NCBI RefSeq assembly: GCF_944324745.1
Contig: NZ_CALUXO010000019.1
Span: forward strand, 1 to 32,983
From: an uncultured Thomasclavelia sp.
GTDB taxonomy: Bacteria; Bacillota_I; Bacilli_A; Erysipelotrichales; Coprobacillaceae
Length of the DNA stretch: 32,983 nt
Direction: 5' to 3'
The notes beneath the pieces are model-generated. The model saw nothing but the letters and a program-made list of their open reading frames with translations, was not told the origin of the DNA and did not search any database. Below are positions 28,797 through 32,532 of the stretch, in pieces. The translations under genes and the position numbers were made by a program. Positions within the stretch are counted from its first letter, which is position 1. Every line of letters starts with the position of its first letter.

Positions 28797-28808
28797 ATTG
28801 TATACAAT
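28797..28808. promoter_or_regulatory. ATTGTATACAAT operator 1 (thrC side)
   Basis: Perfect 12-bp palindrome of GntR-like type (GT-AT-AC core). It contains the thrC -10 box (TACAAT on the minus strand). Identical to the site at 28897-28908, exactly 100 bases away. Confidence 0.75.
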
Positions 28809-28890: not shown

Positions 28891-28919
28891 TTGACTATTG
28901 TATACAATCGTGGTAATAT
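28891..28919 (+). promoter_or_regulatory. hom-lysC-asd promoter
   Basis: TTGACT (28891-28896), 17 bases, TAATAT (28914-28919). The spacer contains operator 2, so a bound repressor would block polymerase. Confidence 0.65.
28897..28908. promoter_or_regulatory. ATTGTATACAAT operator 2 (hom side)
   Basis: Second exact copy of the 12-bp palindrome, lying between the -35 and -10 of the hom promoter. Confidence 0.75.
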
Positions 28920-28951
28920 GTCATAAATTAGAAAAAATGGAGGATTATATT

Positions 28952-29020
28952 ATGTTATTAATGGGCATGAATTCGATGATGATTATTATAACCAGTTTAA
29001 TCATGCCTATGAATAAATAA
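28952..29020 (+). CDS. Methionine-rich leader peptide of hom-lysC-asd
   Basis: 22-codon reading frame with an excellent ribosome binding site (GGAGG at 28939-28943, eight bases before the ATG). Seven of its 22 residues are Met (positions 1, 4, 6, 9, 10, 18, 20) and four are Ile, three of them consecutive (11-13); there is a single Thr. It lies between the promoter and a terminator at 29053-29080. Its coding sequence contains GGCATGA (28964-28970) that can pair with TCATGCC (29001-29007). This is the layout of a ribosome-mediated attenuator. Stalling at Met codons when methionyl-tRNA is scarce should free strand 2 and prevent termination. Confidence 0.75.
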   Translation: MLLMGMNSMMIIITSLIMPMNK

Positions 29021-29055
29021 TTGGTTCTGCTTTTTATTATTTGGAATGTTAGGGC
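29005..29055 (+). promoter_or_regulatory. Candidate antiterminator of the hom leader
   Basis: AAATAAT (29015-29021) pairs with ATTATTT (29036-29042), and GCCT (29005-29008) can pair weakly with GGGC (29052-29055). This would use the 5' side of the terminator stem. It competes with both the 28964/29001 hairpin and the terminator. Confidence 0.45.
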
Positions 29056-29080
29056 CTTTGTTTAAAGGCCGATTTTTTAT
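29052..29080 (+). terminator. Attenuator terminator before hom
   Basis: GGCCTTT (29053-29059) / AAAGGCC (29064-29070), loop GTTT, then GATTTTTTAT. It is a strong intrinsic terminator upstream of the hom start, after the leader peptide. Confidence 0.85.
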
Positions 29081-29095
29081 ATAAGGGGGAATAAG

Positions 29096-30250
29096 ATGAA
29101 AATCGGAGTTGTCGGACTAGGAACTGTTGGTTACGGAGTTGTAGAAATTTTGACCAATGAAAAAAACAGATTAGAAAAGGCCATCAATGAAGAAATAGTT
29201 ATTAAATATGGTTGTGGTTTAGAAGAAGTTGATTTGCCTGATGGAATTATTTATACTAAAGATTTTAATGATGTAATTAATGATAAAGAAATTGATGTTG
29301 TTGTTGAACTTGTCGGTGGTTTAACAGTAGCTAAACAAATTATCTTAGGAGCTATTAATAATGGTAAGCATGTGGTAACTGCTAACAAAGCTTTATTGGC
29401 TCATGATGGAAAAGAAATCTTTTTAGCCGCTAAAAAGAATCGAGTTCATATTTTTTATGAAGCCAGTGTTGGTGGTGGTATTCCGGTTTTAGTTGGACAA
29501 AAAGAAAGTTTAATTGCCAATAATACTAAAGAGATTATTGGAATCTTAAATGGAACTACTAACTTCATTTTAACTTTAATGGAAAATGAAAATCTAGATT
29601 TTAACGAAGCTTTAACGATTGCTGATGGTCTTGGATATGTTGAAGCTAATCCAGCCTTAGACTTGGATGGAATTGATGCGGCTCATAAAATTTGTATTTT
29701 GGCGCAAAATGGATTTAAAAAATACATTGATTTTGATAAAATCTCTGTTAGCGGTATTCGTAATGTTACAAAAGTTGATATGGATTATGCCAAAAAGCTC
29801 GGATATCGTTTTAAACTGATTGCTCAAGCAAAAGAAGTTAATAACGGAATTGGAATTGATGTTGCAGCAACCTTAGTTAATAAAAAAGAACTAGTCGCTA
29901 GCGTTATGGATGCATATAATGTAATAGAAATTGATAACGACTATGTTGAAAATGTTATTTTTTATGGAAAAGGAGCTGGACGTTATGTAACTGCTTCAGC
30001 TGTAGTAAGTGATATTATCAAAACAGTACAAAAAGAATATTGGGATCACGATTATGAAGATTGTCCTAACATTTACCCAATCACTAAATCAAAATATTAT
30101 TTACGCACTGATCGACCTATTGATGTTGATTATGAATTGTATTTCACTGAAAAACAAGACCATATTTACATCACTCACGAAATTGAACTTGCTAACTTAA
30201 CAACTAGTCTTGGCAATCTTGAATATACAATTTTTAAAGTGAGGGGATAA
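29096..30250 (+). CDS. hom: Homoserine dehydrogenase (short form)
   Basis: NAD(P)H-dependent reduction of aspartate semialdehyde to homoserine, 384 residues. The Rossmann glycine motif GVVGLGTVGYGVV is at the start; VTANKALLA, GILNGTTNFIL and the catalytic region GLGYVEANPALDLDGIDAAHK follow. It is shorter than the usual 420-440 residues, and the C-terminal part does not look like a normal ACT domain, so feedback by threonine may be weak or different. Ribosome binding site AAGGGGG. First structural gene of hom-lysC-asd, behind the leader peptide and attenuator. Confidence 0.95.
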   Translation: MKIGVVGLGTVGYGVVEILTNEKNRLEKAINEEIVIKYGCGLEEVDLPDGIIYTKDFNDVINDKEIDVVVELVGGLTVAKQIILGAINNGKHVVTANKALLAHDGKEIFLAAKKNRVHIFYEASVGGGIPVLVGQKESLIANNTKEIIGILNGTTNFILTLMENENLDFNEALTIADGLGYVEANPALDLDGIDAAHKICILAQNGFKKYIDFDKISVSGIRNVTKVDMDYAKKLGYRFKLIAQAKEVNNGIGIDVAATLVNKKELVASVMDAYNVIEIDNDYVENVIFYGKGAGRYVTASAVVSDIIKTVQKEYWDHDYEDCPNIYPITKSKYYLRTDRPIDVDYELYFTEKQDHIYITHEIELANLTTSLGNLEYTIFKVRG

Positions 30251-30251
30251 A

Positions 30252-31511
30252 ATGAATATTATTGTCCAAAAATTTGGCGGAACATCAACTCGCTCAAGAG
30301 AAACACGCTCTTTGATGTATAACAACATCATTCGAGAAATCAATAATGGTAATAAAGTTGTTGCCGTTGTTTCAGCCATGGGACGTTATGACGATCCTTA
30401 TGCTACAGATACTTTATTATCAATTGTTAATACTAAACAGTTAACTGATGAAGAGATTGACCGCCTAACAAGTATTGGAGAAACTATTTCAACTTTAGTT
30501 TGTAAAAGTGAAATGGCTAGTCTAGGATATCGTAGCGCCACGACTACCAATGACGAACTGGGAATCGTAACGGATTCAACTTTCAAAAACGCTACTATTA
30601 ATCATGTTGAGGGTAAAGAAATCATTAAAAAACTAGAATACGCTGATGTCGTCTTCTGTCCTGGATTCCAAGGACATTCTGTCCATGGTAAAATTACCAC
30701 ACTGGGACGCGGTGGCAGTGATTTATCAGCAGTTGCTATCGGAGTAGCTGTTGATGCCAGTGAAGTTGAAATATATAGCGATGTTAACGGTATCTATACT
30801 GCTGATCCTAGAATAGTACCAGATGCTATTAAGCTAGATTACATCAGTTACGCTGAAATGTTGGAATTATCTAAAAATGGTGCTAAAGTATTAAATCATC
30901 GTTGTGTCCAATTAGCTGCTAGTCACAACATTGCTATTCACGCCCGGTCTTCATTTGAAGATAGTAAAGGGACATATGTTATAGGAGATGATCGTATTAT
31001 GAAAGAAAATATTAATCAATTAATTATCTCAGGCATTACCGGTTCTCAAAACGAAGCCCGAATCACCTTAGTAAAGGTCGATGCCACTAATAACAGCGCC
31101 GGAAATTTATTTAAAAAAATTTCTGATGTCGGTGTAAATGTTAATGTTTTTAATCAGGCTTTAGTCGGTGGTGGTCGCATGGATATATCTTTAATTATAA
31201 GTGATAAAGATGTTCCCGCGGTTATTGAAGTTCTCAATGATCTTAAACCACAATTAAACGCTGAAAGAACAATTGTTCGTGGTAATATCGGTAAGGTATC
31301 GGTTATAGGAGTTGGAATTAAAAACAACCGTGGTATGTTCCAAAAAGCTTATAACACTTTAATGGAAAATGAAATCAATGTCGAAATGACCTCTTGTTCA
31401 GAAATAAATATTTCATGTTATATCGATCGCGATGACGTTAAAAGAGCTCAAGTCTTATTACATGAAGCATTTTTAGGAAAGAAAGGAAGTAAAATAAATG
31501 AAAAAATATAA
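30252..31511 (+). CDS. lysC: Aspartokinase (DapG-like)
   Basis: Phosphorylates aspartate, the first step of the aspartate-family pathway; 419 residues. The kinase motif KFGGTS is at residues 7-12. VVSAMGRYDDPYATDTLL closely resembles B. subtilis aspartokinase I (DapG), and GFQGH and TLGRGGSDLSAVAIG follow. Two C-terminal ACT domains (about 265-410) include KVSVIGVGIKNNRGM. The start is one base after the hom stop (AGGGGATAAAATG), with the ribosome binding site inside the end of hom. It could be called dapG; the inhibitor (diaminopimelate, lysine or threonine) cannot be told. Confidence 0.94.
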   Translation: MNIIVQKFGGTSTRSRETRSLMYNNIIREINNGNKVVAVVSAMGRYDDPYATDTLLSIVNTKQLTDEEIDRLTSIGETISTLVCKSEMASLGYRSATTTNDELGIVTDSTFKNATINHVEGKEIIKKLEYADVVFCPGFQGHSVHGKITTLGRGGSDLSAVAIGVAVDASEVEIYSDVNGIYTADPRIVPDAIKLDYISYAEMLELSKNGAKVLNHRCVQLAASHNIAIHARSSFEDSKGTYVIGDDRIMKENINQLIISGITGSQNEARITLVKVDATNNSAGNLFKKISDVGVNVNVFNQALVGGGRMDISLIISDKDVPAVIEVLNDLKPQLNAERTIVRGNIGKVSVIGVGIKNNRGMFQKAYNTLMENEINVEMTSCSEINISCYIDRDDVKRAQVLLHEAFLGKKGSKINEKI

Positions 31512-32532
31512 AGTTGCCATTGTCGGAGCTACTGGAGCTGTCGGAAGAGAAATGTTACGTTGTATCTTTCAATTCAATTTCCCATTTGAAAGTTTAAAAT
31601 TATTAGCTTCTAGTCGTAGTGCAGGAAAAGAAATTGAATTTGAAGGACATAAATTTATTGTAGAAGAATTAACTGAAAATAGCTTTGAAGGTATTGAAGT
31701 TGCTTTCTGGTCTGCCGGAGGTAGTATTTCTGCCAAATATATGGAATATGCGGTTAAGGCTGGATGTATCAATATTGATAATACTAGTCATTTTAGAATG
31801 GATCCTGATGTTCCATTAGTTGTTCCAGAAGTAAATGGCGAAGCCTTAAAAAATCATAAAGGAATTATCGCTAATCCAAATTGTACAACAATTCAAATGG
31901 TTAGTGCCTTGAATCGTTTAAATGAATATTTCGATATCGAAAGAATTATCGTTTCTACTTATCAGGCTGTTTCTGGTGCTGGAGTAGCTGGAATGGAAGA
32001 ATTATATCGTCAATCACAAGAAGTATTAGATGGTAAAGAACCTGTAGCTAAAACATTACCTTGTGCCAGTGATAAAAAACATTTCCCAATTGCCTTTAAC
32101 TGTATTCCTCAAGTTGATAAATTTGATTTAGATAATCATTTTACTAAAGAAGAAATGAAAATGGTAAATGAAACTAAAAAGATTTTCAACAAGGATATTA
32201 AAGTTAATGCCACATGTGTTCGGGTTCCAGTTTTAAGAGGACACTCTGAATCTGTTTATATTGAAACTAAAAAACCAATTGACATTGATAAAGTCTTTGA
32301 ACTATTAAATAACTCAACTGGAGTTGAATTATATGATGATATTGAAAACCAAATCTATCCAATGGCTAACTTATTTGTAGGCGATGAATTAGTTCATGTT
32401 GGACGGGTTCGTAAAGATTTAGATAATCCTAATGCTTTAAGTTTATGGATCGTTGCTGATCAATTAATGAAAGGCGCTGCTTATAATTCAATTGATATTG
32501 GTCTTAAAATGATTGAAATGGGATTATTATAA
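31498..32532 (+). CDS. asd: Aspartate-semialdehyde dehydrogenase
   Basis: 344-residue NADPH-dependent enzyme reducing aspartyl phosphate to aspartate semialdehyde. The N-terminal VAIVGATGAVGREMLR is the nucleotide-binding motif. The catalytic cysteine is Cys129 in NPNCTTIQM, and the RGHSESVYIE segment holds the active-site histidine. The start overlaps the lysC stop by 14 bases, with GAAAGGAAG as ribosome binding site. Third gene of the operon, which ends at 32569-32600. Confidence 0.96.
   Translation: MKKYKVAIVGATGAVGREMLRCIFQFNFPFESLKLLASSRSAGKEIEFEGHKFIVEELTENSFEGIEVAFWSAGGSISAKYMEYAVKAGCINIDNTSHFRMDPDVPLVVPEVNGEALKNHKGIIANPNCTTIQMVSALNRLNEYFDIERIIVSTYQAVSGAGVAGMEELYRQSQEVLDGKEPVAKTLPCASDKKHFPIAFNCIPQVDKFDLDNHFTKEEMKMVNETKKIFNKDIKVNATCVRVPVLRGHSESVYIETKKPIDIDKVFELLNNSTGVELYDDIENQIYPMANLFVGDELVHVGRVRKDLDNPNALSLWIVADQLMKGAAYNSIDIGLKMIEMGLL

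Follow-up and report, generated by a model that had tools for sequence, protein, structure and literature searches.

The window, a stretch of 32,983 nucleotides from an uncultured Thomasclavelia sp. (contig NZ_CALUXO010000019.1), carries a 22-codon open reading frame upstream of hom-lysC-asd, and gene identification placed thrC and thrB divergently on the other strand. The closest named relatives of Hom were from Erysipelatoclostridium sp. An173 (92%), a Thomasclavelia MAG (91%), and T. cocleata (87%). The features considered below are as follows, with percentages giving the alignment cells that were paired.

28798–28807, no strand assigned: second copy of the palindrome TTGTATACAA, overlapping a candidate −10 element of the divergent thrC (sequence match)
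28891–28919, + strand: predicted hom promoter, TTGACT-17-TAATAT, its second hexamer preceded by TG (consensus match 9/12)
28898–28907, no strand assigned: palindrome TTGTATACAA between the hexamers of the hom promoter, a candidate operator (pattern in the genus)
28941–28946, + strand: leader Shine-Dalgarno region AGGAUU, closing a long hairpin with 29023–29028 (pairing kept in 9/9)
28952–29020, + strand: leader peptide reading frame MLLMGMNSMMIIITSLIMPMNK plus stop (reading frame; leaders of relatives)
28964–28970, + strand: leader hairpin strand 1, GGCAUGA (85.7%, nine species)
29001–29007, + strand: leader hairpin strand 2, UCAUGCC, partner of strand 1 in the nine-species alignment
29023–29028, + strand: GGUUCU, predicted 5′ arm of the antiterminator and partner of the Shine-Dalgarno region (alignment, folding)
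29051–29056, + strand: AGGGCC, predicted 3′ arm of the antiterminator, overlapping the 5′ arm of the terminator (96.3%, nine species)
29053–29078, + strand: intrinsic terminator GGCCUUU-GUUU-AAAGGCC plus U run (stem 98.4%)
29096–30250, + strand: hom, homoserine dehydrogenase, the putative first controlled gene (gene identification)
30252–31511, + strand: lysC, aspartate kinase (gene identification)
31498–32532, + strand: asd, aspartate-semialdehyde dehydrogenase (gene identification)

A 30-base pattern containing the TTGTATACAA of the hom promoter was present in all nine genomes of the genus. The palindrome occurred in both the thrC and hom promoters of the window, and likewise in L072, L074, and L075. 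Genome-wide, 11 such sites were counted against 20 for a reversed control pattern; further sites lay immediately before serC, a glnPQ-like ABC transporter, and a citrate synthase gene, the last having two sites separated by 19 nt. The occurrence of the palindrome in both divergent promoters suggests that a repressor, at present only suspected, may act on hom and thrC besides the attenuator described below, and the sites represent a candidate amino-acid regulon of this putative repressor.

The leader reading frame was preceded by a Shine-Dalgarno sequence GGAGGA at 28940–28945, began with ATG at 28952, and ended with TAA at 29018–29020. A good ribosome site and a short reading frame upstream of the operon were thus found in the window, and leaders were also found in relatives. 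The first-pass annotation had described seven Met codons and three consecutive Ile codons in this leader, and both descriptions held: seven ATG codons were counted, start included, and the Ile run is ATT ATT ATA. Beyond the start, Met occupied six of 21 codons; dinucleotide shuffles gave 1.4, and none of 2000 reached six. Ile (4/21) did not exceed its null of 3.6. The window's leader is the Met-richest among the nine leaders of the genus, and it was because of this outlier that the first-pass annotation had read the element as a methionine sensor.

Strands 1 and 2 of the leader hairpin were perfect complements of 7 bp enclosing the middle codons, as had been annotated. The strong terminator annotated after the leader was also present, with GGCCTTT/AAAGGCC at 29053–29070 followed by TTTTTT, and lay between the leader and the first gene. 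One pair of its stem had changes on both sides among the nine species, and 2 terminator-like sites were found in 2 kb against 0.9 expected. The previously proposed alternative pairing, 29015–29021 with 29036–29042, was rejected: 65.8% of 38 two-sided cells were paired, most cells were gaps in relatives, and the terminator stem that it was supposed to block is not touched.

The conserved antiterminator is predicted to be GGUUCU/AGGGCC (29023–29028/29051–29056), which fitted the alignment better than that first pairing. It shares four bases with the 5′ arm of the terminator, so that the two structures would exclude each other. GGUUCU can also pair with the Shine-Dalgarno region; these six pairs were kept in 9/9 species (100% of cells paired), and the lowest-energy fold in all nine combined the terminator with a long hairpin reaching from the ribosome site as far as GGUUCU. 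When the 3′ arms were slid by 1–3 columns, the control structures showed 33 to 58% of cells paired. Covariation within the genus was weak because the arms hardly vary: two pairs changed on both sides, a number reached in 140 of 500 shuffles, and in the alignment set with the antiterminator the single such pair was matched in 305 of 500. Whole-leader folding was moderately better than that of shuffled sequences (z −1.83; 11 of 200 shuffles as good). A cleaner case was provided by Faecalibacillus, where AUGGU/ACCAU became ACGGU/ACCGU, i.e., a U-A pair became C-G. The terminator stem fails to explain this change because the altered 3′ base belongs to the terminator loop, and the case counts as one apparent change common to related species. 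L055, with an ungapped antiterminator of only 3 bp, did not fit.

The distribution of the element was investigated in 43 genomes of the family, 40 of which had hom; nine Thomasclavelia species formed the comparison set. A covariance model found one strong copy in each of the nine genomes of the genus, always before hom (E 7e-25 or better); the same genomes had built the model, and its independent part is solely the absence of further copies. No second strong copy was detected by this model in any of the 43 family genomes, the next best match having an E value of 0.005. By a mechanical scan, leader and terminator occurred together in 23 of the 40 hom upstream regions (terminator in 27, leader in 26); the scan took the antiterminator hairpin in L004 and L007, the leader of L030 is doubtful, the upstream sequences of L053 and L078 were short, and that of L020 has a stretch of N. 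Other genera had short leaders with many Ile, Thr, or Met residues (MMTIITIIDAFNK, MIIHMTIFK, MITINISKTIMCFSNC, and MYKMMTMCISN), and the peptide sequence was not conserved among relatives. Some genera had a terminator yet no ATG leader and others had neither; on inspection, seven family members kept a terminator or decayed element without an ATG leader. L014, L017, and L056, of one genus, had a strong ribosome site and a terminator before hom with ATT where ATG was expected, a sign of leader decay or else of an unusual start. In L015, L018–L021, and L024, of other genera, the leader was followed by a GAGACUGUCUU-like element for which inspection by eye suggested pairing both to the ribosome-site region and to the terminator arm. 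No such leader was found in nine hom upstream regions of the sister family of the order, where the matches in L111 and L112 began inside hom and thus gave an imperfect view of the sequence before the gene. In L104–L110 and L112 of that family, a motif like ACAAGTGTTTTT, perhaps an operator or an RNA element, was seen by eye right after the −10 element of leaderless hom.

Codon usage was counted in the nine leaders of the genus after trimming two of them, L006 and L078, to 24 codons. Ile, Thr, and Met made up 51, 14, and 22 of 185 codons in frame, compared with 10, 2, and 2 and with 9, 1, and 0 in the other two frames (176 codons each), and there were 0 stop codons in frame versus 31 and 10. 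Shuffled sequences gave 28.5 Ile and 5.9 Thr, and none of 1000 reached either observed count; Met was expected 6.3 times, and Ser was enriched about as much as Thr. The leader is therefore enriched in codons for the operon's products Ile, Thr, and Met. The loop of the hairpin, counted in the eight full-length leaders (87 codons; the truncated L003 was excluded), contained 37 Ile, 11 Thr, and 8 Met codons against 13.4, 2.8, and 3.0 expected, and binomial values for these counts overstate the enrichment since the species are related. Every one of the eight had at least four Ile codons and at least one Thr codon in the loop, and seven had Met there, L005 having none.

These counts bear on a methionine-specific attenuator, in which the ribosome would stall on Met codons and the operon would answer to methionine. 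Such specificity would account for the six additional Met codons of the window's leader, for the Met excess over the leaders of the genus, and for that in seven leaders of other genera (10/77 vs 3.0). However, much of the excess sits at freely varying positions in the stem: codons 4, 6, and 18 were Met in 5/9, 3/9, and 4/8 leaders and elsewhere coded for I, K, T, V, or A. With 8 of 87 loop codons and none in L005, Met was not conserved at stalling positions as the methionine reading supposed, and Faecalibacillus leaders showed no excess (3/55 vs 2.9 expected). We therefore consider a purely methionine-specific response unlikely. Aligning the leaders of relatives, as the first-pass annotation had suggested, confirmed an overall enrichment of Met and yielded weak compensatory change within the genus; of its methionine-sensing attenuator, a ribosome-stalling attenuator before hom found good support in the anatomy and in the nine-species comparison, and Met as the chief signal did not. 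On the basis of the loop counts and the stem position of the varying Met codons, we ranked Ile first, Thr second, and Met as possible. The leader most likely senses isoleucine, with threonine, and Met is possibly a third input or co-signal.

Taken from the sequences, these features make it quite probable that hom-lysC-asd of Thomasclavelia is under a ribosome-mediated transcription attenuator. Under a shortage of charged Ile-tRNA (and of Thr-tRNA, perhaps Met-tRNA), translation would halt on the Ile, Thr, or Met codons of the loop, and the ribosome would leave the middle of the leader blocked and the long hairpin open; GGUUCU would stay free and pair with AGGGCC, and the operon would be transcribed. 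When amino acids are plentiful, the ribosome would reach the stop codon, 2 nt before GGUUCU, and cover that arm, or else it would leave and the long hairpin would capture GGUUCU; in either case the terminator would form. Isoleucine would be the chief signal, together with threonine, an arrangement known from the thr attenuator of E. coli. Folding after masking of the leader up to about codon 12 was consistent with this model: GGUUCU/AGGGCC formed in 8/9 species before the 3′ arm of the terminator existed and stayed in 7/9 after that arm was made, L004 and L007 refolding to the terminator. The distance from the stop codon to GGUUCU was 2–6 nt in six of the nine species, and with an assumed footprint of ~13 nt a ribosome at the stop would cover GGUUCU in these six. 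L003, L006, and L078 differed. The leader of L003 already ends at codon 12, within the loop; that of L006 ends only 15 nt past the start of GGUUCU; and that of L078 has 44 codons and runs through the terminator, hom also being frame-broken in this draft. These three leaders may be decayed, or that of L078 may be misread.

The same architecture could serve a sensor of general translation, i.e., of initiation or elongation rate or of slowing by antibiotics, with the ribosome merely freeing or covering GGUUCU. The pairing of the ribosome site itself with GGUUCU throughout the genus, the unconserved peptide with its truncation in L003, and the relatives that have a terminator without an ATG leader agree with such a role, whereas the in-frame enrichment of pathway products, Ile, Thr, and Met, in several genera is against it and makes it improbable. 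A ligand-binding RNA, either an unknown riboswitch or a T-box-like element whose fold happens to hold a short reading frame, would explain the conserved long hairpin and terminator, but it is very unlikely, as the loop sequence varies while the codon content stays and as Rfam gave no match although its T-box and SAM models find members in the genome.

The preferred attenuator with isoleucine and threonine as its signals may be extended to a three-input device, a proposal that we make only tentatively. In this form, Ile, Thr, and Met codons in one peptide would let the operon at the homoserine branch point respond when any of its three end products runs short, the ribosome site would be held by the antiterminator arm, and the element would be a lineage-specific invention of Coprobacillaceae, with T-boxes on the matching tRNA synthetases. 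In the same genome, ilvA and ilvC scored over the cut-off and a MetA-like gene below it; because of these genes, the host is predicted to make isoleucine, and probably methionine, from the homoserine pathway. Inspection by eye revealed no leaders before ilvA, ilvC, and metA.

The E. coli thr operon is controlled by an attenuator whose leader, thrL, contains Thr and Ile codons. The Thomasclavelia element resembles it in that a homoserine dehydrogenase operon is preceded by a short leader encoding products of the pathway, and in its alternative antiterminator and terminator. It differs in belonging to another phylum, in lacking an Rfam match, in adding Met codons while Thr codons are few, and in preceding hom-lysC-asd instead of thrABC.

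T-boxes and the SAM-I riboswitch are the usual attenuators of amino-acid genes in Bacillota. The genome contained 15 T-boxes over the cut-off, among them those before ileS, metG, and a MetN-like transporter. A weaker T-box match before thrS scored below the cut-off, and one SAM riboswitch lay upstream of metK. At the hom leader, none of the covariance models of Rfam families, Thr leader included, matched at gathering or with E up to 1, and the T-box model likewise found only members elsewhere in the genome. The first-pass annotation had stated that Firmicutes usually sense methionine by these two devices; both occur in this genome, and the hom leader matches neither.

The first-pass annotation also called a classical attenuator unusual in Firmicutes. 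This is fair, but precedents exist in the his (PMC2965389) and ilv-leu (PMC5794164) leaders. The S. aureus ilv-leu operon has a Leu-rich leader-peptide attenuator (Kaiser 2018, PMC5794164) and is thus a likewise attenuated amino-acid operon in Bacillota; it is a different operon with Leu as its main signal, and it combines the DNA-binding repressor CodY with attenuation, whereas at hom a repressor is only suspected. Bacilli hisZ and hisS* carry a histidine leader peptide (Naville and Gautheret 2010, PMC2965389), again a regular leader-peptide attenuator in Firmicutes, there replacing a T-box; that system concerns histidine, hisS paralogs, and bacilli. A survey of Actinobacteria reported that no conserved RNA element was found upstream of the threonine or methionine operons of that group (PMC1262725). 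Leader-peptide attenuation is thus already known in Firmicutes, and its use at hom in this group appears new: we found no published example among the matches listed in a search that left most subscription journals outside.

Bacillota are thought to control amino-acid genes mainly by T-boxes and riboswitches. The genome studied here has T-boxes at ileS and metG and would use the enteric method for its homoserine operon. If true, the element would have arisen as a counterpart of the thr attenuator by convergence, and its leader may respond to three end products of a single branch point. The divergent leaders of the nine species make this codon logic testable.
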